A stretch of 64,000 nt of DNA, taken from assembly GCA_019429255.1 (NCBI GenBank), contig JAHYIY010000005.1:1-64000 (forward strand). Direction: 5' to 3'. The notes beneath the pieces were generated by a model. The model saw nothing but the letters and a program-made list of their open reading frames with translations, was not told the DNA's origin and did no database searches. A program made the position numbers and the translations under genes. Below, one piece after another: positions 6,024 to 62,689 of this stretch (position 1 is its first letter; the number at the start of each line of letters is the position of its first letter). The DNA comes from Desulfuromonadales bacterium (GTDB taxonomy: Bacteria; Desulfobacterota; Desulfuromonadia; Desulfuromonadales; Geopsychrobacteraceae).

Positions 6024-6168
6024 GTATCTGTTCAGCACCGGATCTCCGGATCCTATGTCAAGGGACGCTTTTCGTCATCCATGACCGCTTGTTGTCGCCA
6101 TTCATGGCGACAAACACCCCTGCCACAGGACCCCCGACCCTGCACAAGGATAGTGGTGAATAATTACA
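6024..6168 (+). repeat. Three-stem structured repeat, copy 1
   Basis: Begins GTATCTGTTCAGCACCGGAT and ends with GGTGAATAATTAC, an imperfect inverse of the start. Inside are two hairpins with identical TCCA or TTCA-like loops: GTCATCCATGAC and TTGTCGCCATTCATGGCGACAA. The flanks of the hairpins pair as a long outer stem. Six further copies or relatives occur in the window. Confidence 0.75.
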
Positions 6169-6387
6169 CAAATTCTAAGCCACTGTTTTCCCGTAATAAT
6201 TTTTGGTCGCTAAAAAGATGATTCTGCAAATGACAACCTGCTGAGCTCAAAGGTACTTGCTGACGTTGGGCCACCGCAGGGGGCTTGTTGCACAATGAGG
6301 CATGCTTACCAAGGTCGAAGCAGTGGGACGATAGCGCCACCGCTGCAGTTGATGAGTTTGTGCGACGCCATCAATCTTTGCTGCTGG

Positions 6388-7236
6388 TTATTTTGGGGTC
6401 GGGAGAGGTTGTTGTGCAGACAGAAAAAGTTCGTCGCGACGATGTTGTAAGGTCGGAAGCTGGCGTCTGACGTCATCCAGCTGTTGTTTGCTGAGGTCAG
6501 CGATTATCAGTTCGCCATCGGTAGAATCATTTGTTGCCCGGGCAATGACGGTGCCCCATGGATCAACGATCATGCTGTGACCATAGGTTTCCCGTCCGCC
6601 GGGATGGATTCCTATCTGGGCGGGGGCGAGAACAAAAGCCTGGTTTTCAATGGCGCGGGCACGCAGCAGGATCTCCCAGTGGGCGTTGCCGGTCGGAACG
6701 GCAAAGGCTGAAGGTACTGTCAGGATGTCCGCCCTATAGCTGGCGTAATAACGGAACAGCTCCGGAAAGCGCAGGTCGTAGCAGATACTTAGACCAATGC
6801 GCCACTCATCTACGTCAATGATTTCCGGAGAGCTGCCGGCGGTTACCTGTTCAGACTCACGGTAACTGCGATCCGGCAGGTCGCTGTCGAACAGGTGGAT
6901 TTTGTCGTAGGTGGCGACCAGATTGCCGGCGTGAGAAAAGACCGGACAACAGTTGCGCAACAGCTGTTCCTCGTTTGCCAGCAACAGGGTGCCGCCGATG
7001 ATGGTCATCTGATGCCGACGGGCTTGATCGACAAGAAAGGGGAGGGCCTTCTGTTGGGCCTCCTGCGTGGCAAATTGCCATTTACGCTCCTGTTCAGGAT
7101 GCATGAAGGCGAACATTTCCGGCAGAACTGCCAGGTTCACATTTTGCCCGGCGGCCTCTTCCAGCAGGTGGGCAACAGTATCAAGGTTGCTGTCAACCTC
7201 ATCCTGAGAATTCAGTTGCAGGCAGGCAACGCGCAT
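6388..7236 (-). CDS. Carbon-nitrogen hydrolase (nitrilase superfamily, Nit1/Nit2-like)
   Basis: 282 residues, the normal length for the family. The catalytic triad is visible: Glu40 (AVLPE), Lys112 (YDKIHLFD) and Cys152 (SICYDLRFPE). The flanking sequence resembles the Nit branch, whose members remove the amide from deaminated glutathione or act on other omega-amides, so a cytoplasmic metabolite-repair amidase is likely. It is the third gene of a minus-strand group after the rhodanese and the selenoprotein, 82 bases downstream of the latter. The substrate cannot be read from sequence. Confidence 0.88.
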   Translation of the reverse strand: MRVACLQLNSQDEVDSNLDTVAHLLEEAAGQNVNLAVLPEMFAFMHPEQERKWQFATQEAQQKALPFLVDQARRHQMTIIGGTLLLANEEQLLRNCCPVFSHAGNLVATYDKIHLFDSDLPDRSYRESEQVTAGSSPEIIDVDEWRIGLSICYDLRFPELFRYYASYRADILTVPSAFAVPTGNAHWEILLRARAIENQAFVLAPAQIGIHPGGRETYGHSMIVDPWGTVIARATNDSTDGELIIADLSKQQLDDVRRQLPTLQHRRDELFLSAQQPLPTPK

Positions 7237-7318
7237 GGGGCCATCTCCGTGAGAAGAGTTACCTTAAGTTGATTAGCACGTTGTCCTCGTTGCGACAAGT
7301 CCGAAGTCACCGCCATGG

Positions 7319-8140
7319 CTATTTCGCGGAGATCTTGTTTTCTGTGTCGTATTTATGTCGGCGCCAGGCAAATGGCAGGTCGATAATGGTGCCCGGAGTT
7401 TCAATCTCGTAGAGCAGCCGCAGGCTCTCGGTAACAACGGCGCGTTGCTGGGCCTTGTTGTGCGGTTCGCCGACGGGATGGCCGAAGGGCCATTTCAGAA
7501 ACACCGTGCGCGGTGGCTTTACCTTCTCGGCGTACTCCCGCACGATGGAAATACCGATGGTGGCGATGCCGGCTTCTTCAATAACGCGCTGGATCAGTCC
7601 GACGGACTGATTGCAGATCCCTCAGCCAGGGGTTAAAAGGACGATATCGACCTCGTCCTGGAGCAGTTTTTGGGCGATATCAGCGGCTGTCTGGTGAATC
7701 AGGGTATCAATGTGCGGCCCGTCGATGTGCCCCATGAAAGAATAGTGGGTAGTGGCCAAACTGCCGAGTTTCTTTTCCGCAACCATTTCCTGCAACCGAT
7801 CCAGGGGCAGGATGATGTTGGGATCTTTGTCGGCGTCGCTGTGGTCGTAATAGTCATGGGTGATGGTAAAGTCGCCAAACAATCGGTTGCTATCAACGGC
7901 GCGATAACTCGGGTCGCCATTGGGATCGTTCATATCAAAGGGCTGCTGCTCCGGGTGGTGAATGCCCGACGTCGTTACCAACGCTAATTTGGCTTGGTGC
8001 AGGGGAACCGCGGGGCGAACCCAGGGGATGTCCCCTGAGCTCGCGCGCGGAGTGTAGCTGTCAGTAAATTTTTTGGCCAGGGCCGGAAAGCGGGTTGCCA
8101 GGCGGGCCAGTAGCTGGTTTTTTAAGCGGGAAAACTGCAT
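7319..8140 (-). CDS. PrdB/GrdB-like selenoprotein with in-frame UGA (Sec173)
   Basis: Two adjacent open frames in the same phase are separated by one TGA at 7622-7624; reading it as selenocysteine gives one 273-residue protein. The joined sequence resembles the selenoprotein subunit of D-proline reductase (PrdB) and the glycine/sarcosine/betaine reductase B family: ALVTTSGIHH near the N-terminus, then DIVLLTPG-U-GICNQ, a UxxC redox motif, followed by IQRVIEEAGIATIGIS and WPFGHPVGEP. Strong protein similarity continues without a break beyond the TGA, and a SECIS-like hairpin lies just after it. It starts 6 bases after the rhodanese stop. The substrate is unknown; no other reductase subunits are next to it. 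A gene caller that treats TGA as stop would split it in two. Confidence 0.87.
7593..7624 (-). promoter_or_regulatory. Bacterial SECIS-like hairpin after UGA codon
   Basis: On the coding strand the TGA (7622-7624) is followed by 10 bases and then a perfect 8-bp stem ATCAGTCC-GTC-GGACTGAT (7593-7611). The position and a G/U-containing tip match bacterial SECIS elements, which lie inside the coding region right after the Sec codon and bind SelB. Confidence 0.75.
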
Positions 8141-8146
8141 TTATGC

Positions 8147-9094: not shown

Positions 9095-9256
9095 AAAAAA
9101 TCCTCCTAGTTGGGTGTTGTTTGTTTGTTATATTTTCTAAAAACAACAGTGTCAAGATAAATATTATAAAAAAAATACATACATAAATTACTGTAAAATT
9201 GACAGGGAGGTATTAGCACTTATTTTTTAGTATATTGGATAGTTATTGAGGTAATT

Positions 9257-9410
9257 TTGATGGCGTCGCAAAAAGTCCGCCCTACGGCGTTACGGCGTTT
9301 TTTCAGGATCTTGACATACTCTATGTATGCCTGCGCCCCTGAAAAACCACCAGGCCTTGTAGGACGAAATTTTTGCTTAGCCATCCTATGACTTTTTGCG
9401 AGTGCATCAA
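9257..9410. repeat. MITE-like palindromic element with TCGCAAAAAGTC ends
   Basis: The ends are TTGATGGCGTCGCAAAAAGT and its near inverse ACTTTTTGCGAGTGCATCAA. Inside are nested inverted repeats, including TTTTTCAGG with CCTGAAAAA and GTAGGAC with its partner. Elements of this look, often mis-called as small proteins on one strand, are common in deltaproteobacterial genomes. The 74-residue frame across it on the minus strand is not considered a gene. Confidence 0.7.
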
Positions 9411-9504
9411 TTTTGGGTCTTGGAGAAATGCAAAAAAAAGACAAGCTGGCAGATCAAAACCGTACTCACTTGAGTATCAGGGGGATTGATAATGAAAAAG
9501 TTGA

Positions 9505-9659
9505 GTATCTGTTCAGCACCGGATCTTCGGATTCTATGTGAAGGGACGCGATGGTCTCCCATTGGGTCATCCCTGACCGCTTGTTGTCACCATCCATGGC
9601 GACAAACACCCTTGTCACAGGACCCTCGACCCTGCGCAAGGATAGTGCTGAATAGTTAC
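9505..9659 (+). repeat. Three-stem structured repeat, copy 2
   Basis: Starts GTATCTGTTCAGCACCGGAT like copy 1. It carries an extra short segment before the first hairpin (GATGGTCTCCCATTGG), and the hairpin tips read GTCATCCCTGAC and GTCACCATCCATGGCGAC. The right end GCTGAATAGTTAC is an imperfect inverse of the left end. Confidence 0.75.
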
Positions 9660-9933
9660 GTCTGGTTTTTAGTCCCATTGTTTTTCTAGCATCATCAACT
9701 CTCTGTTCGTGGCTTTCCTGCAAATACTGCATGATCGGAAGCTCCCATCAAGAGGGTTTTGGTGTTCTTGTGATTGTTGCGCGCATTTGTTACGACGCTA
9801 ATGAAGGCATTTGGGGTGTGACATTGCGAATTGCTGTTGTCGGATAAATGGCAATCGATGATTGCGCGACTCTCCGCCAGATGTTACTAGTTATCGTTTG
9901 AATCAAATTCCTTTACAGCTACGCGCGGCTACT

Positions 9934-14475: not shown

Positions 14476-14490
14476 TCTTTAGCTGCCAGC

Positions 14491-22127: not shown

Positions 22128-22273
22128 GTATCTGTTCAGCACAGGGCCTTTGAATCCTATGTCAAGGGACGCTTTTCGTCATCCATGACCGCTTGTTGTC
22201 GCCATCCATGGCGACAAACACCCCTGCCACAGGACTCAAAGGCCCTGCACAAGGATAATGGTAAATAGTTACA
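22128..22273 (+). repeat. Three-stem structured repeat, copy 3 (covarying outer stem)
   Basis: Same ends and the same two TCCA hairpins as copy 1, but the outer stem differs on both sides: CAGGGCCTTTGAATCCT on the left and AGGACTCAAAGGCCCTG on the right, which pair with one mismatch over 17 bases. Copy 1 has unrelated bases at these positions on the left, so pairing seems to be kept while sequence drifts. Confidence 0.8.
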
Positions 22274-22411
22274 TAAAAATAAAAGCAGATCATTCTACTG
22301 TCACAGCTGTATCAGCGTCAAACTTTTCTCATGCAGCCGGTTACCAGCGATAAACCGGTCAACCGACGCGCCGGCGCGTTATAGCGTGAAGTCACCAGTC
22401 TCATCAAAAAA

Positions 22412-30980: not shown

Positions 30981-31401
30981 TTTTTGTGCCTTTTGGGGAT
31001 CTAATTTACGGATCAGATAATGGTCTTATTTTTGACAAAAATGATAACCCAGTCAAGTTTGTTTTGTAATCATTCTCTGTGTGAAATGAGGATGTTCACC
31101 AATTATCATGCTTAACTCTCCATAATTTGCTTGCGCAATGGTCATGCCTATCATTGATGTCGAGCTGATCCAATATCCAGCGCCATTCCGGTCTGCTGGA
31201 CAATCCTAAATGACATCCGTTTTAACGTCCATGGCTTGCTCACGTTGCGGATCGTTCAGCCTGTTGTTGATAGATCACGCCGATAGTATTCGAGTTTGTG
31301 GCGAAGCTGTGGATAAGGTTGCATTTTCATGTCATCCATGCCTCATCGACAACGCGGACGATCGTCTTGACATATATTTCGGATGTTTCGCGGATTTCCG
31401 T

Positions 31402-31478
31402 AGGGGTAGACCTATGTGTCTGCCCTGTTGATCCCAGGTTGCCCGAGTCAGGGCGAACATATAGGTTCTCCCCTAAAT
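31402..31478. repeat. REP-type inverted pair A
   Basis: GTAGGGGTAGACCTATGTGT and the facing sequence ending AGGTTCTCCCCTAA form an imperfect inverted pair around a short centre. It is related to pair B at 31681-31807. Confidence 0.65.
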
Positions 31479-31489
31479 TGGGGTTTAAT

Positions 31490-31682
31490 TTATCCAAATC
31501 CCATTGGGCAGGGTTATTCAGGATGTATTCCCGTATGCGATTCAATTCCGTTTCGTAGCGGATGATGTGTTCCCAATAATTGCGCTGCCACAATTTTTTG
31601 GGAAATGGTTGCCACCCATCCTGTTTGACACCCCGAATGTATTCATTGGTCGACATGGTTTTGAACCATTGCACCACACGAT
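31490..31682 (-). pseudogene. REP-associated tyrosine transposase (Y1_Tnp), C-terminal remnant
   Basis: The minus strand reads about 64 residues typical of the end of RAYT transposases: WFKTMSTNEYIRGVKQ, then LWQRNYWEHIIRYETEL and IREYILNNPAQWDLD. The N-terminal half with the HUH and catalytic tyrosine motifs is missing; the frame runs straight into REP sequence on the upstream side (31683). It sits between two REP pairs, the kind of element such transposases mobilise. Confidence 0.7.
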
Positions 31683-31807
31683 GTAGGGGCGAACCTACGT
31701 GTTCGCCCGGTTGTTTTCCCATGTCGATTTTGGTCGTGGGGGCAGACCGATGTGTCTGCCCATTTTGTTGTTGCGCCAAACCAGGGCGGACACATAGGTC
31801 CGCCCCT
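31681..31807. repeat. REP-type inverted pair B
   Basis: GTAGGGGCGAACCTACGTGT at the left and ACATAGGTCCGCCCCTAC at the right are near-perfect inverse ends; an inner GGGGCAGACCGATGTGTCTG unit lies between. The pair separates an HTH gene start from a transposase remnant and probably inserted into one of them. Confidence 0.7.
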
Positions 31808-31873
31808 ACTGCTGATACCAAGGTGGTGGCAGATTTCGTGGATGGATAACCAGCGATCTTCCGAGTTGGTCAT
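31808..31873 (-). pseudogene. Excisionase-like HTH protein, N-terminal stub
   Basis: From the ATG at 31873 (GGAG 8 bases upstream) the frame reads MTNSEDRWLSIHEICHHLGI, the usual start of an HTH_17/excisionase-type DNA-binding protein, then enters the REP pair. The rest of the gene is not found in the window. Confidence 0.55.
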
Positions 31874-46416: not shown

Positions 46417-46455
46417 TGCAGACTATTCAACTGCCCACTGTAGAATAGTCTGCAG
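46417..46455 (+). promoter_or_regulatory. Two tandem palindromic sites upstream of cus operon (enhancer candidate 2)
   Basis: TGCAGACTATTCAACTG (46417-46433) and TGTAGAATAGTCTGCAG (46439-46455) start 22 bases apart, two turns of the helix. Each matches the palindrome at 44933-44949 in 14 of 17 bases. Together they also form an 11-bp inverted repeat, which could be a terminator for the regulator gene, but there is no T-run. Centre about 105 bases before the predicted transcript start. Confidence 0.6.
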
Positions 46456-46514
46456 CCCTCCTTCTTTGCTTCTCTTGAGAAAACTAAACAACTGAAAAAT
46501 AAGCTAAAATAGTT

Positions 46515-46530
46515 TTGGCACACAAGTTGT
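46515..46530 (+). promoter_or_regulatory. Sigma-54 promoter of cus operon
   Basis: TTGGCACACAAGTTGT matches the TTGGCAC-N5-TTGC consensus except for the last base; GG and GT are 10 bases apart. It is 58 bases before the CusC-like start and directly downstream of the paired sites. Confidence 0.7.
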
Positions 46531-46587
46531 AAGTGTCTTTTCGAAGATAGTTACTGTCGATCCATTCTGCTGGTGTCGGAGGTTCGT

Positions 46588-47853
46588 GTGAAAATTATTT
46601 TTTTTGGTTTTTTTGCCTTGGTGTGGCTGCTGGGAGGCCATGCTGTTGCGGCTGAGGAAAACCTTGAAGCATTGGTTGCCCAGGCGTTGACCAGGAATCC
46701 GGAAGTTGCGGTTTCTGATGCTCGCTGGCAGATGCTGCGGCAGCGAGCGGAAGCCGCCGGCTCCCTGGAAGACCCGATGCTGATGCTCGGGATTCAAAAT
46801 GCCCTGGTAAGCGACCCCTTCAATTTTCGTGAGGATCCCATGACCCAGAAGGTCATCGGCATTTCCCAGATGATTCCTTACCGGGGTAAGCGTGGGGCTA
46901 AAACTGCTGCGGCATATAGTGAGGCGCAAGCTGCACGCTGGCTCATCGATGAGCGCAAGCTGGAACTGGCACAAATGGTTCGGGAAACCGGCTATCGTAT
47001 TTATGCCGTGGATAAGAGCATCGGCCTGACCGAAGAGAATTTGCAGCTACTGGATGATCTGATCGCTCTTGCTGAAACCCGTTATGCCGTGGGGCGAGGA
47101 TCGATGCAGGAGATTCTGGCGGCCCAGGTGCAGCGCTCAAAAATGCAGGAAATGCTCCTGGTGCAAAAGCAGCAGCGCCAGATCCAGCAGGCACTGCTCA
47201 ACGAGTTGCTGGCCAGGCCCCAGGTGACAAGCGTCGGCACCATGCCGGAGCTGACCCTGGTTGAGCCCAGTCTCGAACCGGAAGCCCTGCGTCAGCAGGC
47301 CCTCTCCCAGCGGCCGCTGCTGCACAGCCTTGCGGCCCAGCACGAAAAGAGTCTGGCTAATCAACGACTGGCAAAGCTCGATTTTTACCCCGATGTCACT
47401 ATCAGTTTTGAGTACATGCAGCGTGATCGGCTGCGGTCCGGCATGGGGGATGTGGAGGGGGAAGATATGTACGCCCTGACCCTTTCCTTCAATCTGCCGG
47501 TTCAGCGCGCTAAGCGTCGTGCCATGGTTCATGAGGCCGCAAGCGAGAGCGCTATGGTGACCAACGAACTGCGCGCTGTGCACAATGCCATCGAGGGGGG
47601 GATTACCCAGCGCCTGGCTGAGCTGGAGCTGCGCTCCGGGCAGGTGATCCTTTACCGTGAAGCGATCATCCCTCAGGCCGAACAGTCACTGGAAGCCTCA
47701 GTCTCTGCTTATCAGGTGGGAAAACTTGAGTTTTCCATGGTGCTGGATCAACAGATGGGGTTGTTCGGCTATCAAATCGACTATCACAAGATGCTGGCGG
47801 ATTATCACATGTCTCTGGCGCAATTGCGGACACTGGTTGGTGGGGAGCTGTGA
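46588..47853 (+). CDS. CusC-like outer membrane efflux protein
   Basis: 421 residues from the GTG at 46588, with CGGAGG 5 bases upstream; an earlier GTG at 46573 overlaps this site. Signal peptide (about 1-22, ending AVAAEE) and the TolC-family helical repeats. First gene of an operon with a CusB-like adaptor and CusA-like pump, so it should be the outer membrane duct for copper or silver export. Followed by two structured DNA elements before cusB. Confidence 0.88.
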   Translation: MKIIFFGFFALVWLLGGHAVAAEENLEALVAQALTRNPEVAVSDARWQMLRQRAEAAGSLEDPMLMLGIQNALVSDPFNFREDPMTQKVIGISQMIPYRGKRGAKTAAAYSEAQAARWLIDERKLELAQMVRETGYRIYAVDKSIGLTEENLQLLDDLIALAETRYAVGRGSMQEILAAQVQRSKMQEMLLVQKQQRQIQQALLNELLARPQVTSVGTMPELTLVEPSLEPEALRQQALSQRPLLHSLAAQHEKSLANQRLAKLDFYPDVTISFEYMQRDRLRSGMGDVEGEDMYALTLSFNLPVQRAKRRAMVHEAASESAMVTNELRAVHNAIEGGITQRLAELELRSGQVILYREAIIPQAEQSLEASVSAYQVGKLEFSMVLDQQMGLFGYQIDYHKMLADYHMSLAQLRTLVGGEL

Positions 47854-47871
47854 TGGTGTGGTCTCGGGAAA

Positions 47872-47963
47872 ATCAGGGAGTCGGAATGCTTTCTCTTGCG
47901 GGCAAAACTCGGCTGACGCCTCAAACAGTTCCCCGCTGTGTTCAAGCATCCCGACTCCCTGAT
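47872..47963. repeat. 20-bp hairpin element within cus operon
   Basis: ATCAGGGAGTCGGAATGCTT and AAGCATCCCGACTCCCTGAT pair over 20 bases with one mismatch. The inside carries a second stem, GCGGG with CCCGC, enclosing GGCTGACGCC. It has a layout like the three-stem repeat (long outer stem, inner hairpins) but a different sequence. Confidence 0.65.
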
Positions 47964-47989
47964 AATGAGTTCTTTAACTAGCTGAAACT

Positions 47990-48132
47990 GTAATTATTCA
48001 GCAATATCCTTGCGCAGGGTCGGGTGTCCTGTGGCAAGGGTGTTTGTCGCCATGGACGGCGACAACAAGCGGTCATGGATGACGAAAAGCGTCCCTTGGC
48101 ATAGGATTCCCGATCCGGTGCTGAACAGATAC
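47990..48132 (-). repeat. Three-stem structured repeat, copy 4 (reverse)
   Basis: Inverse orientation: ends GGTGCTGAACAGATAC on the plus strand. Inner hairpins are present (TTGTCGCCATGGACGGCGACAA and GTCATGGATGAC as read on plus). In the larger hairpin the stem differs slightly from other copies. Lies between the hairpin element and the CusB-like start. Confidence 0.78.
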
Positions 48133-48160
48133 CTGAAACTTAACATTGATGGATTGGCCG

Positions 48161-49402
48161 ATGAAAAAAATACTTTTGTTACTACTGACGATTTTATTGC
48201 TGGGCGCTGCTTATGTGGCTGCTGAAACGCCAAAATATATCAGCCCGATGCACCCCTTTATCACCTCCGATGAGCCGGGGCAGTGCCCGATCTGTGGCAT
48301 GGATCTGGTGCCCTACGATCAATTCGAGAGCGGCGGTACCGGCAGCACCATCGAAATCGACCCGGTGGTAGTGCAGAACATGGGGGTGCGTCTGGCTCAA
48401 GTCACGCGCGGCAATCTGAGTCGCAACATCCGCACCGTTGGTATCGTCGGTTATGAAGAGACTGCTCGGACATCCGTCAACAGCAAGATTTCCGGCTGGG
48501 TCGAGGGGTTGCATGTCAATCAGGCCGGCCAGGAGGTCAAAAAAGGGCAGTTGCTGCTGACCATCTATAGTCCAGATCTGGTCAGCGCCCAGGAAGAGTA
48601 CCTCATGGCGCTGCGAAATTATGAGCGCCTGCAACAGAGCTCCATTGCCGGCGTCGCGGACAGCGCTGAAAAATTACTGGCTGCGGCAGAAACCCGGCTG
48701 CGCTATTGGGATATCTCTGCGAAAGATATCGAGGGGTTGCGCCAGTCCAAAAAGGTGCAGCGCACCCTGCCTCTGTATGCACCGTTTAGTGGCGTCGTGA
48801 CGGAAAAAATGGTCAATCAGGGGATGTTTATCGCTGCCGGGATGGAACTGTACCAGCTTGTCGATCTCTCGCGTATCTGGGTCTATGCCGATATTTACGA
48901 GTACGAATTGCCCTGGATTGCTGGAGGGATGGCGGCCGAGGTGGAGATTCCCCAATTGGGCAAGACCATCCCCGGCAAGGTCGATCTGATTTATCCCTAC
49001 GCCGATGGCATGACCCGTACGGTTAAGGCACGTATTGAACTGCCCAACACGGATCGCCAGCTGCGCCCCGACATGTTTGTTACGGTGCGCCTTGAGGGAC
49101 GCAGCGTCACTGATGCCCTGTTGGTGCCCAGTGAAGCGGTGCTTGATTCCGGTCAGCAGCAGCGGGTGTTTGTCGCCCTCGGCGAGGGCAAGTTTGATCC
49201 CCGTCCAGTCCACGTGGGTTTGCGCGGTAGTAACGGGTTGGTTGAGGTTCACGGCCTCAATGAGGGAGAGCAGGTGGTGGTCAGCGCCCAGTTCATGTTT
49301 GATTCGGAAAGCCGTTTGCGTGAGGCCATTGACAAGATGCGCGCGGTCACCGGCCAGGATGTTTCCGTTGACGATTTGTTCAACGATCACAGTGGTCATT
49401 GA
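48161..49402 (+). CDS. CusB-like periplasmic adaptor with heavy-metal binding domain
   Basis: 413 residues from the ATG at 48161; another ATG five codons upstream is possible. Signal peptide (about 1-22), then the heavy-metal-binding motif YISPMHPFITSDEPGQCPIC followed by GMDLVP, then the RND adaptor domains: barrel-sandwich, alpha-hairpin (about 130-210), beta-barrel and membrane-proximal domain. It hands periplasmic Cu(I)/Ag(I) to the pump. Followed after 27 bases by cusA. Confidence 0.9.
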   Translation: MKKILLLLLTILLLGAAYVAAETPKYISPMHPFITSDEPGQCPICGMDLVPYDQFESGGTGSTIEIDPVVVQNMGVRLAQVTRGNLSRNIRTVGIVGYEETARTSVNSKISGWVEGLHVNQAGQEVKKGQLLLTIYSPDLVSAQEEYLMALRNYERLQQSSIAGVADSAEKLLAAAETRLRYWDISAKDIEGLRQSKKVQRTLPLYAPFSGVVTEKMVNQGMFIAAGMELYQLVDLSRIWVYADIYEYELPWIAGGMAAEVEIPQLGKTIPGKVDLIYPYADGMTRTVKARIELPNTDRQLRPDMFVTVRLEGRSVTDALLVPSEAVLDSGQQQRVFVALGEGKFDPRPVHVGLRGSNGLVEVHGLNEGEQVVVSAQFMFDSESRLREAIDKMRAVTGQDVSVDDLFNDHSGH

Positions 49403-49429
49403 CCCTTAAGGTACTGAAAGGTTATTACG

Positions 49430-52400
49430 ATGTTATCCCACATCATTGAATGGTCGTTCCGCAATCGTTTCCTGGTGATCCTGACCACCGCTTTTCTGGT
49501 GGCGGGTGGGCTGTTTGCCTTGCGCAACACCCCCATTGATGCCATCCCTGATCTGTCCGATGTCCAGGTGATTGTCTTTACCGAGTACCCCGGGCAGGCC
49601 CCCCAGGTGGTGGAAGATCAGGTCACCTACCCCCTGACCACCCAGATGCTGGCGGTCCCGGGAGCCAAGACGGTGCGCGGTTATTCCTTCTTTGGCTATT
49701 CCTTTGTCTATGTCATTTTTGAGGATGGAACCGATCTCTACTGGGCGCGTTCGCGCGTGCTGGAATATCTCAACTCGGTTTCGGGCCGCTTGCCTGGAGG
49801 AGTCAATCCGACCCTTGGTCCCGATGCCAGCGGCGTTGGTTGGGTTTATCAGTATGCCCTGACCTCCGATCGTCACGATCTCCAAGAGCTGCGCAGTCTG
49901 CAGGACTGGTTTTTGCGCTATGAACTGTCTTCGGTGGAAGGGGTCTCAGAGGTTGCCGGCCTCGGTGGTTTCGTCAAGCAATATCAGGTGGCCGTCGATC
50001 CCAACCGGCTGCTTGCCTACAATATTCCCGTGACCGAACTGATGATGGCCATCCGCAACGCCAATCTGGATGTCGGCGGCGGCGCCATTGAGATGGGGGA
50101 AACGGAATTCATGGTGCGCACTACCGGTGGCTATATTCGCTCGGTGGAAGATCTGGCCAACGTGGTGGTGATGGCGACTCCGGGAGGTGCGCCGATCAGG
50201 GTGGGGGATGTGGCTCAGGTGCGCATCGGTTCCGAGATGCGCCGCGGCATCGCTGAGCTTGACGGTGAAGGGGAGGTTGCCGGCGGTATTATTGTCATGC
50301 GCTCGGGGGAGAATGCCCTGAAAACCATCGAGCGGGTTAAACAGAAACTGGAGGAACTGAAAAAAGGCTTGCCCGAAGGGGTGGAGATTGTTCCGACCTA
50401 CGATCGCAGTGAACTGATCACCGGAGCGGTCAAGAACCTGCAGCACAAGCTGATCGAAGAGAGCATTGTTGTGGCTCTGGTGATTATTCTTTTCCTGTTC
50501 CATCTGCCCAGCGCCTTTGTCGTTATCCTGGCGCTGCCGATAGCGATCCTGATGTCGTTCATCATCATGTATCTGCAGGGGATCAGTTTCAACATCATGA
50601 GTCTCGGCGGTATCGCCATTGCCCTTGGAACCATGGTCGATTCGGCCATCATCATGGTGGAAAATGCCCATAAAAAACTGGAATTTGCCCCGGCCAATGC
50701 CAATCGAAAATCGATCATTGTGGAGGCGGCCAAAGAGGTCGGCCCGACCATCTTTTTTGCCCTGCTGGTAATTACTGTTTCTTTTGCGCCGGTGTTCACT
50801 CTTCAAGAACAGGCCGGACGCATGTTCAAGCCTCTGGCCTATACCAAGACCTACGCCATGGCCGCCGCCGCCCTGCTGTCGATTACCCTGGTGCCGGTAC
50901 TGATGAGTTTTTTCATTCGTGGCCGGATTCGTGGGGAGACAGCCAACCCCGTCAATCGTGGACTGATCCGCATCTATCATCCCCTGGTGGATGTCGTCCT
51001 TAAGCGCCGCAAGACCGTCCTCTTTGTCACGTTGTTGCTGCTGTTGTCGACGGCCTATCCTCTAAGCCGCCTTGGTACTGAATTCATGCCGCCGTTGTAT
51101 GAGGGGGATCTGCTCTACATGCCTACCACCCTGCCCGGCATCTCGGTGACCAAGGCCAAGGAACTGTTGCAGCAGACGGATAAAATTATCGCCTCTTTCC
51201 CTGAGGTGGAGCGGGTTTTCGGCAAGATCGGCCGGGCTGAGACCGCCACCGATCCGGCACCGATGATGATGGTTGAAACCACCATCATGCTCAAACCCCG
51301 GGATGAGTGGCGCTATCTGCCGACCGACAGGTTTTACAGCCACTGGCCTGATGCTTTAGCTTTCATCAAAAAACCATTGCGCCGGGTGTTCCCCGAAGCG
51401 AAACAGATGACTATCGAGCAGCTGACCGACGAGCTTAATCGGGCAGTGCGCTTTCCCGGCTTGACCAACTCCTGGACCATGCCGATCAAAACCCGCATCG
51501 ATATGCTGTCCACCGGCATCAAGACCCCGGTTGGTATCAAGGTCATGGGGGATGACCTGAATATTTTAAGCCGCCTGGCAGAAGAAATCGAAGCGGTGGT
51601 GCGTGATCTGCCCGGAACCAGATCAGCCATTGCTGAACGGGCCGTCGGTGGGTTCTTTCTCGACGTTGATATTGACCGCGCGGCCGCTGCCCGTTACGGC
51701 ATCAATATCGGCGATATTACCGAGGTGGTGCAGACCGCCATCGGCGGTATGAAGATTGCTGAAACGGTGGAAGGGCTGGAGCGCTATTCCATTAATGTGC
51801 GTTACGATCGTGATTTCCGGGATGATGCCGATAGTCTGAAGCGAGTCCTGGTGCCCGCTCCGGGGGGGCGCCATATCCCTCTGACGCAGCTTGCCAATCT
51901 GGTGGTGCGTCAGGCTCCCGACAGTATCAAGAGCGAGAACGCCCGACGTACGGTCTGGGTTTATGTTGATCTTGCTACCAGCGATATCGGCAACTATGTC
52001 GCGGCTGCCCGCAATGCCGTCATCGAACATGTTTCCTTGCCGCCGGGCTACAACGTGGTCTGGAGCGGTCAGTATGAGTATATCGAATCGACGCGCGAGC
52101 GACTGCTGGTGATCATCCCCATGACGATTCTGGTGATTTTCGTCCTGATTTATATCAGCACCAAATCCCTGGTGCGCACCTTCATCGTCTTTTCCGCCGT
52201 GCCCTTTTCCCTGATCGGTGCCTTCTGGCTGCTCTACCTGCTTGATTACAACCTGTCCATCGGCGTCTGGGTCGGCCTCATCGCCCTGGCGGGGCTGGAT
52301 GCGGAAACCGGCGTGGTGATGCTGCTCTATCTTGATCTGGCGCATAAACGCTGGAGCGAGGAGGGGCGGATGCGTACCCGCGGTGATTTGATCCAGGCGA

Positions 52401-52708
52401 TTCACTACGGGGCGGTGCGGCGTATCCGTCCCAAGGTGATGACGGTGGTGACTATTATCGCCGGCCTGATGCCGATTATGTGGAGTAGCGGTATCGGTTC
52501 CGATGTGATGAAGCGCATCGCCGCGCCGATGATTGGTGGCACGGTGACATCCCTGCTCCTCGAACTATTGCTCTACCCGGTATTCTTTTACCTCTGGCGC
52601 TCCCGTTCCCTGGACCCCAGTCCGGTGCCGACGGTTCCGGATGAGGAATTAACAACACCTGTGAAGGTAAATTCACCAGAACCTCTCAACCAAGGAGAAA
52701 CAACATGA
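49430..52708 (+). CDS. CusA-like heavy-metal RND efflux pump
   Basis: 1092 residues, the length of CusA/CzcA pumps, with twelve membrane helices. The fourth helix reads GIAIALGTMVDSAIIMVENAHK, the form found in monovalent-copper/silver (HME) pumps rather than zinc/cobalt ones. Start region MLSHIIEWSFRNRFLV and NTPIDAIPDLSDVQVIV are typical. It takes copper from the periplasm or CusB and drives it out through the CusC duct by proton flow. The stop overlaps the next gene (ATGA). Confidence 0.92.
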   Translation: MLSHIIEWSFRNRFLVILTTAFLVAGGLFALRNTPIDAIPDLSDVQVIVFTEYPGQAPQVVEDQVTYPLTTQMLAVPGAKTVRGYSFFGYSFVYVIFEDGTDLYWARSRVLEYLNSVSGRLPGGVNPTLGPDASGVGWVYQYALTSDRHDLQELRSLQDWFLRYELSSVEGVSEVAGLGGFVKQYQVAVDPNRLLAYNIPVTELMMAIRNANLDVGGGAIEMGETEFMVRTTGGYIRSVEDLANVVVMATPGGAPIRVGDVAQVRIGSEMRRGIAELDGEGEVAGGIIVMRSGENALKTIERVKQKLEELKKGLPEGVEIVPTYDRSELITGAVKNLQHKLIEESIVVALVIILFLFHLPSAFVVILALPIAILMSFIIMYLQGISFNIMSLGGIAIALGTMVDSAIIMVENAHKKLEFAPANANRKSIIVEAAKEVGPTIFFALLVITVSFAPVFTLQEQAGRMFKPLAYTKTYAMAAAALLSITLVPVLMSFFIRGRIRGETANPVNRGLIRIYHPLVDVVLKRRKTVLFVTLLLLLSTAYPLSRLGTEFMPPLYEGDLLYMPTTLPGISVTKAKELLQQTDKIIASFPEVERVFGKIGRAETATDPAPMMMVETTIMLKPRDEWRYLPTDRFYSHWPDALAFIKKPLRRVFPEAKQMTIEQLTDELNRAVRFPGLTNSWTMPIKTRIDMLSTGIKTPVGIKVMGDDLNILSRLAEEIEAVVRDLPGTRSAIAERAVGGFFLDVDIDRAAAARYGINIGDITEVVQTAIGGMKIAETVEGLERYSINVRYDRDFRDDADSLKRVLVPAPGGRHIPLTQLANLVVRQAPDSIKSENARRTVWVYVDLATSDIGNYVAAARNAVIEHVSLPPGYNVVWSGQYEYIESTRERLLVIIPMTILVIFVLIYISTKSLVRTFIVFSAVPFSLIGAFWLLYLLDYNLSIGVWVGLIALAGLDAETGVVMLLYLDLAHKRWSEEGRMRTRGDLIQAIHYGAVRRIRPKVMTVVTIIAGLMPIMWSSGIGSDVMKRIAAPMIGGTVTSLLLELLLYPVFFYLWRSRSLDPSPVPTVPDEELTTPVKVNSPEPLNQGETT

Positions 52709-53253
52709 AAAAAATGACAAAAATGACGATTGCCCTGGCTTTGCTGCTGCTGTTCCTCACCGCTGGAATCTCTCTAGCCATGCGCCACAGCGGCCACAGT
52801 GGCCACGGCAGCAGCGCTCCGGCGGCATCGGGGCATGACGCCCATCAGATGAAAAAAACATCTGAAGCTGGACACAGTGGTGGCCATATGGGGATGGAGA
52901 TGACTGATGACATGATCATGCTCGGCACCCAGGCTCGGGATGGGGTCAAGGCCATGGCGCACATCAGTGATACCAGTGAGGCCATGGCTGCCGCCGGAAT
53001 GAAGCAGACCCATCACCTGATGGTTGCTTTTGAAGACGCTGCTACGATGAAGGCGCTCGACTCCGGTCGGGTCGCTGTGCGCATTGTTGCGCCAGGTGGA
53101 CAAACCTTGCCGGCCATCTCGCTGTCAGGGATGGATGGAGCTTTTGGTGGTGATGTTGAGTTGCGTGAAAAAGGCACCTATACCCTGCAGGTGGGAACCC
53201 AGCTGCAGGATAATAAAGCGCGACAGTTTGAATTTCAGTATGAAGTGAAGTAG
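52705..53253 (+). CDS. Periplasmic His/Met-rich protein of cus operon
   Basis: 182 residues; signal peptide (about 1-26), then a His/Met/Ser-rich stretch (RHSGHSGHGSSAP, HMGMEMTDDMIM) followed by a small beta domain (about 85-182). No named family is recognised; it may be a copper-binding chaperone feeding the pump, as CusF does in E. coli, though it lacks CusF-like sequence. Overlaps cusA by four bases, so it is co-translated. Confidence 0.75.
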   Translation: MKKMTKMTIALALLLLFLTAGISLAMRHSGHSGHGSSAPAASGHDAHQMKKTSEAGHSGGHMGMEMTDDMIMLGTQARDGVKAMAHISDTSEAMAAAGMKQTHHLMVAFEDAATMKALDSGRVAVRIVAPGGQTLPAISLSGMDGAFGGDVELREKGTYTLQVGTQLQDNKARQFEFQYEVK

Positions 53254-53298
53254 CAAAAACGCTGAAAAAGACACTAGCAGCAAACAGCAGTAAACAAC

Positions 53299-53340
53299 GC
53301 CGGTACCATTTTTTTCCAATAATTGAAATGGTACCGGCTC
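53299..53340 (+). terminator. Terminator hairpin after cus operon
   Basis: GCCGGTACCATTT pairs with AAATGGTACCGGC, a perfect 13-bp stem (53299-53311, 53326-53338), followed by TCTTGTTG. It is 45 bases after the last cus gene. Confidence 0.65.
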
Positions 53341-53427
53341 TTGTTGTGTGGATAAAAGTGAAGCAGGCTGTTGGCATATTTTGTTCGGAAGGCTATAACA
53401 ATAACTTTCGTACTCAAGGAGCAAAAG

Positions 53428-53622
53428 ATGCCGCACAATGTCAATGAACGTCTGGATGAACTGGAAATTCGTGCCAGCTATCAGGATCGGCTGCTGGAAG
53501 AACTCAATGCGGTTGTTACTGACTGCAATCTGCGTATTGATCAGTTGACCCGTCAGAATCGCCAACTGCAGGATATGGTGAAAAATCTTGGCGGGTCGCT
53601 GGAAGCATCGCCTGATGAATGA
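53428..53622 (+). CDS. slyX: SlyX-family protein
   Basis: 64 residues from the ATG at 53428 (AAGGAG 6 bases upstream). The whole protein is a short coiled coil with the SlyX pattern NERLDELEIRASYQDRLLEE and LTRQNRQLQDMV. Function of the family is not established. It is transcribed alone or with the structured repeat directly after it. Confidence 0.85.
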   Translation: MPHNVNERLDELEIRASYQDRLLEELNAVVTDCNLRIDQLTRQNRQLQDMVKNLGGSLEASPDE

Positions 53623-53626
53623 TGTT

Positions 53627-53745
53627 TCAGGTAGGCAGAGTCGAAACTTTCATTCCAGGGGACACTATGCGCCATCCATGGCCGTTCGACTGTCGCCGTC
53701 CACGGCGACAGACGCCCTTGTCATGAAAGCCCCGACTCTGCCTGA
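53627..53745 (+). repeat. Three-stem structured repeat, copy 5 (divergent, covarying)
   Basis: Outer stem AGGCAGAGTCGAAACTTTCA pairs with TGAAAGCCCCGACTCTGCCT except for three bases. First hairpin GCCATCCATGGC and second CTGTCGCCGTCCACGGCGAC have changed stems relative to copy 1 (GTCATCCATGAC, TTGTCGCCATTCATGGCGAC), with both sides altered together and TCCA loops kept. Confidence 0.75.
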
Positions 53746-53778
53746 GTGTGCTCGTCATGATCCGATTGGAGCCGTCTG

Positions 53779-54819
53779 ATGGCGCTGGAGTTGTGGCAGC
53801 AGCGCCTCAAAGAAAGTGTCACGACGGTCGATGAGCTGGCACAACGGTTCGGGATCGATCCGGAACCGTTGCGGGAGGTGGCGGCGCGCTATCCGCTGAA
53901 AATTACCCCCGGGTATTTTGATCTGATCGGTGCGGTTGGAGATCCGCTCTGGAGCCAGTGCGTTCCCGATGTGCGCGAGTTGCAAGCGGGTGGCTATGCT
54001 GACCCGCTGGCCGAAGCGCATTATTCTCCCGTGCCGGCCATCATCCACCGCTATCCTGACCGGGTGATTCTGCTGGTGTCCAACAATTGCGCCGGGTACT
54101 GCCGCTTCTGCACGCGCAAGCGCAAGGTTGGCAGCAGTGACCATGCCGTCAGTTTTCGTGAGCAGCGTGAAGGGATCGACTATGTTGCCGCTGATGAACG
54201 TATACGCGATGTGATTCTCTCCGGTGGTGATCCGCTGATTCTGCCTGACAGCGTCCTTGAAGATCTGCTGGTGCGGATACGTGCTATTTCCCATGTCGAG
54301 ATCATCCGCATTGGTAGTCGGGTGCCGGTGACCCTGCCCGAGCGTATTACCCCGGCGCTGTGTCAAATCCTCAAGAAATATACCCCGCTTTATCTCAATA
54401 CCCATTTTAATCACCCGCGCGAGCTGACGCCGGCTTCCGCCGCCGCCTGCGCTCTGCTTGCGGACCAGGGTATTGTTCTCGGTAATCAGACGGTGCTGTT
54501 GCACGGGGTGAACGATGACGTCGCAACCATGATCGAACTGCTGCGCGGTCTGCTGAAAATCCGCGTGCGCCCCTACTATCTGCATCAGATGGATCTGGTG
54601 GAAGGTACGGCCCATTTTCGTACACCGCTACAGACCGGTCTGGACATTATCCGTGCCCTACGCGGCCCGGTGTCGGGCATGGCGTGCCCTCATTTTGTTG
54701 TTGACCTGCCCGGCGGCAAGGGGAAGGTGCCGCTGCTCCCCGATGGACTAAGATATCGGGATGGCAAAACGGTGATTACCACCTCTCCCGGGGAGTTGGT
54801 GGAATATCCGGATTTGTGA
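53779..54819 (+). CDS. KamA-family radical SAM protein (lysine 2,3-aminomutase-like)
   Basis: 346 residues. Radical SAM cluster motif [15 protein letters not shown] (Cys104, Cys108, Cys111), SGGDPL, and the PLP-type lysine region FVVDLPGGKGKVPLLP, where classic aminomutase has PGGGGK. It is shorter than lysine 2,3-aminomutase at 59.4 kb (439 residues) and lacks the extra cysteine-rich C-terminal tail. It may be an EpmB-like EF-P lysine aminomutase or an amino acid 2,3-aminomutase of another substrate; the sequence does not decide. The true lysine aminomutase with its acetyltransferase lies 5.6 kb downstream. Confidence 0.82.
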   Translation: MALELWQQRLKESVTTVDELAQRFGIDPEPLREVAARYPLKITPGYFDLIGAVGDPLWSQCVPDVRELQAGGYADPLAEAHYSPVPAIIHRYPDRVILLVSNNCAGYCRFCTRKRKVGSSDHAVSFREQREGIDYVAADERIRDVILSGGDPLILPDSVLEDLLVRIRAISHVEIIRIGSRVPVTLPERITPALCQILKKYTPLYLNTHFNHPRELTPASAAACALLADQGIVLGNQTVLLHGVNDDVATMIELLRGLLKIRVRPYYLHQMDLVEGTAHFRTPLQTGLDIIRALRGPVSGMACPHFVVDLPGGKGKVPLLPDGLRYRDGKTVITTSPGELVEYPDL

Positions 54820-55956: not shown

Positions 55957-56159
55957 AAAGCTATCTGCGTTACTAGGAATCCCGATCTTTTGCTCGATCC
56001 TGCGGACGTGCCTTCACCGGGCCGGATCCTGGCGGCGATCAGCGACGGAGCGCATGGCGCAGGCACTACGATGCAGAGTCGGCGGAACGGGCGGAAAAAC
56101 ACTGTGGTGACCTCCAGCACTGTTCTGGAAGAGATGCCGGCCTCAACTGTTCGCGGGGT
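55957..56159. other. Gap with no recognised gene
   Basis: 203 bases between threonine aldolase and the decayed aminotransferase. GC-rich, with partly open frames but no protein I recognise; it may be more of a decayed gene. Confidence 0.4.
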
Positions 56160-58692: not shown

Positions 58693-58850
58693 CAGGCTTT
58701 ACGCAGCGGTAATGCAATACCCCCCCTCCCCCGAGGGCTGTTATGACAGCTTTCGGGGTTTTTTATTGCCCTTGTCACCATGGGAGGTAGCCCCAAACGA
58801 CCTAAAAGTAAACCGAAGGCAAAGGCAAAACTGATCAGAATAACAGGCAT
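58689..58850 (-). pseudogene. Kef-type cation:proton antiporter, N-terminal stub
   Basis: From the ATG at 58850 (AGAGG 7 bases upstream) the frame reads MPVILISFAFAFGLLLGRLG followed by LPPMV, the usual first helix of CPA2/Kef antiporters, then runs through the rhlE terminator in reverse to a stop after 53 codons. The rest of the antiporter is absent. Either a remnant or a very small membrane protein; remnant is more likely. Confidence 0.5.
58729..58766 (+). terminator. Terminator after rhlE
   Basis: CCCCGA-GGG-CTGT pairs with ACAG-CT-TTCGGGG, followed by TTTTTTATT. A classical Rho-independent terminator 37 bases after the rhlE stop. Confidence 0.85.
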
Positions 58851-59374
58851 AAAAAACCTCTAAGGATTGGCTGCGGCCAATAAATCAGCTTGGGATTGAT
58901 CAGGTTGGGTGGGCGCAGATGGGATGTCGCCGTCCATGGCGACAAGCGTCCCTTGACATAGGAGCCCCGATCCGGTGCTGAACAGTTACAATAAAACAAT
59001 CAGCGCTGACCAGGGTGAGTGCAGGGTGATTTTGCATAAAAATGCCACAGATTGTTCCTTGCCTCGTGAAAGATTCTTTGTTATGGTTTGTTGGTGACTT
59101 TAAGAATAGTAAATTCCTTCGATAATAAATCGATGCTTCTAACAAGATCATCGGAAATTATAATAAATGGTTAGTATTTATTTTTTTACATTCGAAACTT
59201 TTGAGCAGAACTCAAAAACTCCTGTTTACCCCACTTTATTAGTTTATCTCTGACATCTTAAATAATTATACTTTAATGGTATGACACAGGATCTCACCTT
59301 CAGGTGGTGATTCTTTATCCCATTTTTACCAACGTTAGATTCGAACGGAAAAAAAGGAGAAAAAGGCTTTTATT
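58851..59374. other. AT-rich region upstream of ablA with truncated repeat
   Basis: 524 bases. A shortened copy of the three-stem repeat is at 58922-58990. 59090-59370 is strongly AT-rich and likely holds the ablA promoter; GATCTCACC-TTCA-GGTGGTGATT near 59294 forms a hairpin in the leader. AAAAAAGGAG precedes the ablA ATG. No gene. Confidence 0.5.
58922..58990 (-). repeat. Three-stem structured repeat, copy 6 (truncated)
   Basis: Keeps the larger hairpin (GATGTCGCCGTCCATGGCGA) and one outer arm ending GATCCGGTGCTGAACAGTTAC, but lacks the first hairpin and the other arm. Confidence 0.65.
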
Positions 59375-60694: not shown

Positions 60695-61529
60695 TCGTGT
60701 TGAATCCTTTAGATCCTCCATATTGCAGCATGGTCCGGAAAATGATCGGGTTTATCTGATGAAACTGCAGCAGGACGATGTGGTTGGAGTGCTTGAGTAC
60801 ATTAATGAGCTGGTCGATCAGCACAACTATTCCAAGGTATTCGCTAAAATTCCTGCAACCAGTAAAGATCCTTTTCTTGAAGCTGGTTATTGTGTTGAAG
60901 CACAGGTGCCGGGTTTCTATCAGGGCGAAATTGATGGGTTGTTTCTGGCCAGTTATCCTCAGGCTGAACGTCAACAGGATCCAGACTCCGAACGCGTAGT
61001 TAAGGTGTTGAATGCTGCCCGGAGAAAGTCTGGTTCTCTTGCTCCCGTCCATTTGCCGGAAGGCGCAGCCAATCAATGCCGGTTGGCAGACCCTGATGAT
61101 TGTACCGCCATGGCCGACCTCTATCAGCGGGTTTTTTCCAGCTACCCGTTTCCGATTCACGACCCGGTTTATCTGGCCGAGACAATGGCTGACAATGTGA
61201 CCTACGCCGGTATCTGGAAGGGAGAGGAACTGATTGCTCTGGCATCAGCCGAGGTTGACAAGGCCGCTTCCCATGCCGAAATGACCGATTTTGCCACCGC
61301 TCCCGCCTGCCGGGGAGAGGGGCTGGCGCATCTGCTGTTAGCCAAACTGGAAACCCTGATGGCGCAGGCAAGGGTTCAAACCTGTTACACTATTGCCCGT
61401 GCCACCTCCTTCGGCATGAATATCACCTTTGCCAAAAGCGGTTATCGGTACGGCGGCACCCTGGTGCAGAATACCCAGATTTCCGGCGGGCTGGAGAGTA
61501 TGAACGTCTGGTACAAGCCGGTTGAGTAA
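60684..61529 (+). CDS. ablB: Beta-lysine N-acetyltransferase (AblB)
   Basis: 281 residues from the ATG at 60684 (GGAG 7 bases upstream; a GTG directly before it is possible), overlapping ablA by 11 bases. N-terminal AblB-specific domain and a C-terminal GNAT domain (about 125-260) with the acetyl-CoA loop [11 protein letters not shown]. Adds an acetyl group to the epsilon-amino group of beta-lysine, the last step to the compatible solute. Confidence 0.92.
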
Positions 61530-61540
61530 GATTCGAGTGT

Positions 61541-62365
61541 TCAGGCTGTTTTGCTCTGCAGCAGCTTGTTCCAGGTGTTGCGCTCAAGAAAAGACCCGAT
61601 GACATTCTCCTCCATGGTTTGAAACATGGACCAGGGGATCGACATGCTCATGACATTTTCGCCGAAGTGATTGCGCAGGTAGAGGCGCGCCGACAAATCC
61701 ATCAGGCCGGCTACCGCTTTGGGGCGGTCTTTTTCCTCTTCATCATAAGCATAGAGGCCGACCGCCTGACAACCGGCAGCAAAGGGGAAGATGACATTGT
61801 CATTGCCTTCAAAGCTGTAGTTGGCCAGCACACCAAGGGCAGAAAACCGGTCGGGATCACAGAAGAACACCACAACAATCGGTTCCTCCTGCTGCGGATC
61901 GATCTCACTTAGGGGTTTGAATACGACATATTGGGTGGGAATATCACGCATCGGCAGATCATCGATAAAATCTCGCACTGCCTCCGGGTTTTTCAGATAA
62001 CGTTCCCCCTGCAGGTACTCCTCGATAAAATGTTCATCAGTAAAAGCCTTGAGCGCCCTGGCGACCTCTTCCCCGTCGGGGTGGCCGGCGTTGCCGGAGG
62101 AAAGGAAGCGGCAGAATCCTTCTGTCCCGCCGGGGAAATTACGATACTGGTCGCCGAAGCCAAAGCCGGTGCCGCCGCCGAAACAGCCGAAAGCATCGCG
62201 ACTGCAGGCGGTAACCTTTCCCTTGGCCGCTGCCGCCGTCAGCCACAGGCTGCAGCTCCAGGATTTATCCTTGAACATTTGCGCTCCTTCGGGTTTTTCA
62301 TCGCTCCAGAGGATGGCAACCGGCTGGTGGGGAAGGGAGATCGCTGTGGCAATCTGACTGTTCAT
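61541..62365 (-). CDS. DUF169 domain protein
   Basis: 274 residues, a DUF169 family member: CSRDAFGCFGGGTGFGF near residues 54-70, then VVFKPLSEIDPQ and VVFFCDPDRFSALGVLANY. The family is widespread in anaerobes and archaea, with conserved cysteines, but no function has been shown. AGGAG 7 bases before the ATG. Convergent with ablB and separated from the next gene by a repeat. Confidence 0.85.
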   Translation of the reverse strand: MNSQIATAISLPHQPVAILWSDEKPEGAQMFKDKSWSCSLWLTAAAAKGKVTACSRDAFGCFGGGTGFGFGDQYRNFPGGTEGFCRFLSSGNAGHPDGEEVARALKAFTDEHFIEEYLQGERYLKNPEAVRDFIDDLPMRDIPTQYVVFKPLSEIDPQQEEPIVVVFFCDPDRFSALGVLANYSFEGNDNVIFPFAAGCQAVGLYAYDEEEKDRPKAVAGLMDLSARLYLRNHFGENVMSMSIPWSMFQTMEENVIGSFLERNTWNKLLQSKTA

Positions 62366-62689
62366 GATAGACTCCTGTCGGCAAAGGGATTACAAAAAAA
62401 GCGTATCTGTTCAGCTATGCCCTTGCGCAGGGTCGGGGCGCCTGTGACAAGAGTGTTTGTCGCCATGGATGGCGACAACAAGCGGTCATGGATGACCCAA
62501 CGGGAAACAATCGCGTCCCTTGACATAGGACCCCCGATCCGGTGCTGAACAGATACAAAAAGCATACATGAATTGGCCATTATATTGATGTTGCAGGTAT
62601 CTGTCGAGTCTGTTAAAGATGCTCAAGCCTTAGGCTGTCATTAAAGATATTTTGCATGAATCTGTGTCCAATAACTGCCGGAGTAGCTC
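62366..62689. other. Divergent gap with three-stem repeat
   Basis: 324 bases between divergent genes, about half filled by the three-stem repeat (62403-62556). The remaining bases are AT-rich with no recognised motif beyond GGAG before the DUF3617 start. Confidence 0.55.
62403..62556 (-). repeat. Three-stem structured repeat, copy 7 (best terminal inverted repeats)
   Basis: Ends are a perfect 13-base inverse pair: GTATCTGTTCAGC at 62403-62415 and GCTGAACAGATAC at 62544-62556. Inner hairpins TTGTCGCCATGGATGGCGAC and GTCATGGATGAC (plus strand) are present, with the same extra insertion type as copy 2 beside the smaller hairpin. Confidence 0.8.

Follow-up and report, generated by a model that had tools for sequence, protein, structure and literature searches.

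Dispersed repeats of a Desulfuromonadales genome are probably IS66-type miniature elements built around the TwoAYGGAY RNA

TwoAYGGAY (RF01731) was described as a probable RNA from the human gut, gamma-proteobacteria and Clostridiales in the account of this motif in PMC2864571, and its Rfam type is Cis-reg. Tandem G-A mismatches in one of its stems were reported, and binding of CsrA was proposed from motif matches, in the part of PMC4333381 dealing with this family. Among mobile elements, ISDge4 of the ISBst12 group of IS66 has the ends GTGACTACTCAGCA/GTAACTGCTCAGCA, one open reading frame (ORF) and an 8-bp repeat, as given for it in PMC12898284. Here, a stretch of 64,000 nucleotides (the window; contig JAHYIY010000005.1, positions 1 to 64,000, assembly GCA_019429255.1), which is part of contig 41 of a Desulfuromonadales genome of 2.74 Mb, was analysed for a dispersed family of folded repeats, each with a long outer stem enclosing two hairpins. 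The source organism was regarded as a member of Pelovirga (Desulfuromonadia); the KamA/EpmB-family protein encoded at 53779 has its nearest named relatives in Pelovirga terrestris and a metagenome bin (88% identity each).

The repeats are likely to be non-autonomous miniature inverted-repeat transposable elements (MITEs) of the IS66 family, ISBst12 type, with the structured RNA TwoAYGGAY as their body. Seven sites that an earlier note had picked out in the window were read directly in the sequence and then matched to two covariance models, one built from 30 copies (R1) and the other order-wide (R2). Full-length R1 matches were obtained at 6024-6168, 9505-9660, 22128-22273, 47989-48132, 62402-62556 and 53622-53766, and the truncated copy at 58922 was matched by R2 (58827-58990, 28.3 bits). 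In total, the window holds six full-length elements, one of them without recognisable ends, and one remnant. They are given below with the strand of the TwoAYGGAY RNA; the earlier note had read the complement of the Rfam strand, and its TCCA loops are the AYGGAY loops seen from the opposite side.

Copy 1, 6024..6167, - strand: full MITE with the duplication ACAAATTC at 6016-6023 and 6168-6175.
Copy 2, 9505..9659, - strand: full MITE of the long form with an 11-base insert, without flanking duplication.
Copy 3, 22128..22272, - strand: full MITE with the outer stem CAGGGCCTTTGA / TCAAAGGCCCTG, without flanking duplication.
Copy 4, 47990..48132, + strand: full MITE with the duplication CTGAAACT at 47982-47989 and 48133-48140.
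Copy 5, 53619..53765, - strand: divergent, three-stem core intact, without recognisable IS66-type ends.
Copy 6, 58827..58990, - strand: truncated remnant, visible part about 58922-58989.
Copy 7, 62403..62556, + strand: full MITE with exact 13-base inverted ends and the 7-bp repeat AAAAAGC at 62396-62402 and 62557-62563.

All seven sites hold elements as the earlier note had described them, and the particulars read there, namely the exchanged outer-stem block of copy 3, the changed hairpins of copy 5 and exact 13-base terminal inverted repeats (in copy 7), are present in the sequence. That the family exceeds chance was also borne out by folding, in which seven strands taken from five copies had z-scores of -3.9 to -9.8, and by the R2 matches in the genome, which numbered at least 146 at E <= 0.001, at least 138 of them below 1e-9. 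These are minimum numbers, since 150 of 1133 first-look candidates were scored. With R1 the element was found in 24 of 44 genomes of the family and 40 of 136 of the order, and with R2 in 46 of 277 genomes of the class, all 46 from its own order; these are likewise lower bounds, stricter filters having been applied and a limited number of candidates scored per genome. The named loci matching R1 include Pelovirga and Desulfuromonas sp. CSMB_57. Element copies were not found in the plasmid search or in viral contigs searched with one exact pattern.

The ends of the elements are imperfect inverted repeats like GTATCTGTTCAGC, and in the orientation of the earlier note an element starts with GTATCTGTTCAGCAC and finishes near GCTGAATAGTTAC. 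Ends and duplications were analysed in 132 of the 146 own matches, the remainder consisting of 6 matches located at contig ends and 8 that were weak, and an end was recognised with up to 4 mismatches in 13 bases. Both ends were present in 117 of the 132 copies, and 53 of these 117 were flanked by exact 8-bp direct repeats, against 0.06% of permuted pairs; flanking repeats matching at 7 or more of 8 bases were seen in 73 (permuted pairs, 0.4%). The exact repeat was 8 bp long in 53 copies, 7 in 4 and 9 in 2. The wider sample, mostly Pelovirga together with other genera, comprised 92 of 143 matches, most of the remainder having been set aside as shadows on the opposite strand, fragments or second matches to one place; both ends were present in 77, of which 29 had exact 8-bp repeats and 46 had 7 or more matching bases, and the duplications were 26% G+C, which indicates AT-rich targets. 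Comparison with sister strains, as the earlier note had proposed, revealed an empty site, the insertion of copy 7 being missing at the matching site of the sister genome L088. Copy 4 is common to the genome and P. terrestris (L089), and no model match was found at its place in L088. Copy 5, which has no target duplication, is missing at the same place in both L088 and L089, where 15 nt lie between the upstream stop codon and the ATG of the KamA/EpmB-family gene. Because of the IS66-type ends, the 8-bp duplications, the empty site and the IS66 transposons with near-identical ends described below, the repeats are classed from their sequence as IS66-type MITEs.

Other arrangements were also observed. 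At L020 (G000:C13:2780-3248), a tandem array of three elements has CATTATTT after every one of them, which looks as though the same 8-bp target had been reused by repeated insertion. Two copies at L087 lie 124 bp apart, with the core in tandem repeats and flanks unlike the IS66-type ends. The core copies at L064 and L095 have different flanks that are shared in part (TGCAC.TCG.T-like) and may represent a second type of end.

A match to the IS66 transposase was found in 18 of the 136 order genomes, and IS66 elements with ends near-identical to those of the MITEs were located at six loci (L177, L184, L185, L186, L187, L191) in five related genomes. These insertion sequences (IS) are about 1.7 kb long and their ends start with GTAACTATTC, zero to few bases off the MITE ends, with exact 8-bp repeats at L185 and L191. 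The two loci with ORFs read have one transposase ORF each, of 483 and 472 aa, and both proteins were assigned to the IS66 transposases by NCBIfam and by Pfam, where the domain is called DDE_Tnp_IS66. This partner IS occurs in 5 of the 136 order genomes, and the element is also present in 4 of those 5 (Fisher p 0.045). The classical IS66 elements of the order (ends GTAAGCG; L047, L169, L171, L178) were excluded as partner, as their ends differ. When the IS of L185 was compared with plasmids, a single weak partial match was obtained (Marinobacter, 13% of the query).

At the curated Rfam thresholds there were zero matches in the window. In a relaxed Rfam search of relatives, the core matched RF01731 TwoAYGGAY on the strand opposite to that of the earlier note, and the element L078/L196 of genome G090 scored 50.9 bits over all 168 model positions, the curated threshold being 43. 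RF01731 was matched at E <= 0.001 in at least 7 of the 136 order genomes, with at most the best 19 candidates scored per genome, including all four of the genus and one over the threshold; control genomes gave 0 of 14. The two AYGGAY-loop hairpins within one enclosing stem are present (41 copies), with GGA in both loops in 113 of the 132 own copies, and the alignment columns 56/127 and 57/126 hold G-A in 12 and 10 of 41 rows, these columns being variable. Other sub-threshold Rfam names, among them MIR1437, F6 and Ysr224, were regarded as chance matches. At L078 (G090:C170:90-223), the element lies inside a palindrome running into the flanks, near a contig end, and may in part be an assembly artefact, which weakens the sole RF01731 match over threshold.

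From these model matches the core most likely belongs to an already described RNA family, RF01731. The claim of the earlier note that the family was undescribed is thus wrong for the core, though the own copies that were scored stay below the threshold. Its choice between a MITE-like element and an RNA motif is answered by both at once, since ends, 8-bp duplications, empty site and IS66 transposons occur together with a covarying single-strand fold. In the literature searched on TwoAYGGAY, MITEs and IS66, TwoAYGGAY was not found as a transposable element; the tables of multicopy sequences in the supplements of PMC3543383 (Pelobacter carbinolicus) and PMC2996986 (Geobacter bemidjiensis) may list such repeats unnamed. 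Each component is known, and the combination of RNA and MITE, not found in print in that literature, seems unreported.

Among the 30 close copies covariation was modest, with double changes in 7 of 50 pairs (22 cells vs 9.7 in shuffles) and pair types no richer than in shuffles (18 vs 18.6). In other genera the outer stem has a different yet complementary sequence. Order-wide, 41 copies were aligned by sequence alone and 37 pairs were taken from one row, L082; two of these, paired in merely 29 and 19 of the 41 rows, were dropped. The 35 pairs kept had 93.6% of their cells paired and showed double changes in 25 pairs, amounting to 237 cells compared with 61.5 in shuffles and 32-69 with slid partners; the true register gains some advantage from a structure read off a single row and from the loss of two pairs, but not one of the observed size. 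The outer stem alone had double changes in 21 of 25 pairs with 91.4% of cells paired, and it is judged to be conserved in structure, not sequence. Every base of GGA, in either loop, was conserved in 40 or 41 of the 41 rows, the adjoining loop bases being variable. As seen in the aligned copies, the predicted three-way junction of long outer stem and two GGA-loop hairpins is kept by compensatory change across the order. Furthermore, G-U exceeded A-C on the AYGGAY-loop strand by 75 to 16 in the 41 rows and by 51 to 12 once the Pelovirga rows were removed, leaving 34 rows (17 pairs against 5, p 0.017), which indicates that it is this strand that folds, either as RNA or as single-stranded DNA.

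The gene context was assessed by simple ORF calls, not curated genes. In the 132 own copies the upstream gene was on the same strand in 56 and on the opposite strand in 65, and the downstream gene in 57 and 68; a smaller sample of 53 copies gave same vs opposite 28 to 18 upstream and 21 to 24 downstream. This orientation is as in random insertion and speaks against a general cis role. Forty-seven of the 53 copies lie outside long ORFs, and among the own copies 34 of 132 overlap a called ORF (edges and short ORFs included), with 6 of 132 deep inside one. Copy 4 sits in sense between two + strand ORFs, the second of them CusB-like. Two overlapping promoter-like matches were observed at 22276-22321 on the - strand, the RNA strand of copy 3, just upstream of this copy and outside the element, with 0.7 expected by chance.

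Measures of how the ends and the core are preserved in single copies conflict, and no conclusion was drawn from them. Singletons in the 53 related copies were fewer in hairpins and junction (16/2650) than in ends and linker (34/2065; p 8e-4), those in the 132 own copies showed the opposite trend (ends 10/3646, hairpins and junction 40/6563; p 0.025), and states rare in 5 or fewer own copies were again more frequent in ends (155/3646) than in the core (104/6563; p 1.5e-15). GGA had no extra protection over other hairpin positions in the own copies (rare cells 14/789 vs 65/3416, p 0.89). G-U vs A-C in the own genome was 200 to 120 overall, 58 to 64 in rare states and 12 to 14 in singletons, and in the 53 Pelovirga copies 75 to 21 overall and 15 to 8 in rare states (p 0.21). 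As GGA changes are no scarcer and rare G-U and A-C are equal, protection of loops or pairs in single own copies was not detected by the rare-state tests on the 132 copies, and selection appears visible between lineages and not on single copies. The view of the earlier note that the fold is under selection thus stands between genera, where covariation, GGA loops and the G-U excess carry it, and was not detected on individual copies in the own genome. That neither protection of loops or pairs nor an orientation bias was found there makes a cis role unlikely for most copies.

The own genome has CsrA, as do 67 of the 136 order genomes. With the element as located by R1, CsrA was present in 25 of 40 bearers vs 42 of 96 genomes without it (p 0.06), and with R2 in 28 of 46 vs 39 of 90 (p 0.07), kinship being ignored in both comparisons. 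Among the bearers, several genomes that are nearly complete gave no CsrA match, for example G019, G020, G106, G001 and G084. The published proposal that CsrA binds the core is compatible with the findings, though unproven, and is the best mechanistic lead.

In the mechanism that would account for the elements, an ISBst12-type TnpC supplied in trans would move them, its source probably having since been lost from the own genome or missed in the draft. The twin GGA hairpins, when transcribed, perhaps mostly by read-through, may bind CsrA or a similar GGA-loop protein, which is the weaker part of the proposal, and selection on the fold would act on the lineages that keep spreading and not on each inserted copy.

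A number of results weigh against this explanation. A good duplication is missing from 44 of the 117 own copies, and 10 of 132 lack one end and 5 of 132, copy 5 among them, lack both. IS66 transposase (PF03050) was not found in the own genome, four of the six IS66 loci have no exact 8-bp repeats, and no core match with R1 was found in these loci; the MITE is therefore not a simple deletion derivative of them. Own copies scored 33.6-39.3 bits (E 1e-4 for the best) against the RF01731 threshold of 43, with three matches among the best 19 of 209 candidates. In the own copies 1, 3 and 4 (6036-6152, 22140-22258 and 48003-48121) the TwoAYGGAY strand has its energy minimum in a rod that pairs the hairpins with each other and hides the loops, a fold favoured by about 3.5 kcal/mol in copies 1 and 3. 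Copies 5 and 7 form both hairpins at the minimum, and of the 41 rows 16 have the full junction as their minimum and 28 have it within 1 kcal of the minimum, making a two-state RNA possible on these computed folds. For the CsrA part, 15 of 40 element-bearing genomes show no CsrA, and the random orientation to genes over the 132 own copies and the equal preservation of GGA and other hairpin positions among them also count against it.

The rival explanations were weighed with probabilities that are not exclusive of the best explanation. The sub-threshold scores of the own copies would fit a new structured-element family unrelated to RF01731 and alike through the AYGGAY loops alone; this was given a very low probability, as a relative of the same anatomy exceeds the threshold with all 168 model positions covered, the order of parts, the CAAG linker and the strand are the same, and the control genomes had no match. 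More weight, though still that of an unlikely reading, was given to a purely selfish MITE whose fold serves transposition as single-stranded DNA, not RNA. The pairs are unprotected in single copies, with rare G-U and A-C at 58 and 64, and a folded DNA strand could likewise produce the excess of G-T over A-C that one strand shows between genera, G-T mismatches being the milder ones in DNA. However, IS66 is a DDE family with target duplications and not a single-strand transposon, the IS loci without the core suggest that the transposase does not need it, and the near-invariant GGA loops fit a bound protein better. The same core in a family reported from Clostridiales and gamma-proteobacteria (PMC2864571, in its account of the motif) also speaks against this selfish alternative.

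Two further rivals were considered. That individual copies are trans-acting small RNAs sequestering CsrA in the service of the host was considered rather improbable: the twin GGA loops, the published motif-based proposal (PMC4333381, in its treatment of this family) and the somewhat more frequent CsrA in element-bearing genomes (p 0.06 and 0.07, kinship ignored) are in its favour, but GGA changes are as frequent as other hairpin changes in the own copies and several nearly complete element-bearing genomes show no CsrA. The slightest probability of all was left to a cis-regulatory RNA kept in the untranslated regions of particular genes. Its Rfam type, the position of copies mostly outside long ORFs, the sense placement of copy 4 between two same-strand ORFs and the promoter-like matches upstream of copy 3 would agree with such a role, but orientation is unbiased over the 132 own copies, and target duplications and the empty site show insertion. 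The reading as IS66-type MITEs with a TwoAYGGAY body is preferred to these rivals.

Further observations were made in the window. The region 46417-53622 is 98% identical to P. terrestris (L089), the identity being 82% from 53768 on, and the break coincides with copy 5; this suggests that the heavy-metal efflux region may have been exchanged recently within the genus. An inverted repeat, ACCCGCGAAGGCGGGT, adjoins copy 1 at 5906-5990 and is presumably of a kind common in proteobacterial genomes. Repeats resembling GTAGGGG..GACCTATGTGTCTGCCC cluster at 31399-31809, one of them inverted and three direct. The stretches 53-160 and 4085-5395 show a 54-nt direct repeat, which looks like RTX-type coding repeats, upstream of a gene for a type I secretion adaptor of the HlyD family.

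TwoAYGGAY has been without a known function since its report in 2010, and an IS66-type MITE of which it is the body would give it a means of spread. The MITE setting provides hundreds of natural variants as well as sister genomes that differ in particular insertions. A caution comes with it, in that dispersed copies may covary because a mobile lineage is under selection and not because every site has a function. Should CsrA bind the loops, the element would be a candidate CsrA antagonist in relatives of Geobacter. A bolder and doubtful proposal is that TwoAYGGAY, at least in this order of Desulfuromonadia, is a transposon-spread sponge, in which IS66-type MITEs would supply more than 100 twin GGA-hairpin RNAs per genome that jointly titrate CsrA; if true, the sponge would be a decoy system for a global regulator assembled by a mobile element.

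The Correia/NEMIS elements resemble the present ones as short, hairpin-forming MITEs of many copies with inverted ends and folding transcripts; they differ in their ends and are not known to have a GGA-loop RNA family inside. With the CsrB/CsrC/RsmX-Z RNAs the element shares GGA in hairpin loops, but it has merely two such sites, and its own promoter and CsrA binding are putative here. In G. sulfurreducens no CsrB/C-type RNA is characterised according to the passage on them in PMC13407953, and three are predicted in that of PMC11934962. The ISBst12 group of IS66, such as ISDge4, is matched by the MITEs in their GTAACTATTCAGC-like ends and 8-bp duplication, whereas the MITEs are too short for a transposase gene and their interior is unmatched in the IS loci. 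With TwoAYGGAY RF01731 the core has in common the long outer stem of variable sequence, the large and then the small AYGGAY-loop hairpin, the CAAG between them and the strand. The taxa that PMC2864571 lists in its account of the motif exclude Desulfuromonadia, and here the RNA is found in many copies per genome, set within inverted ends and target duplications.

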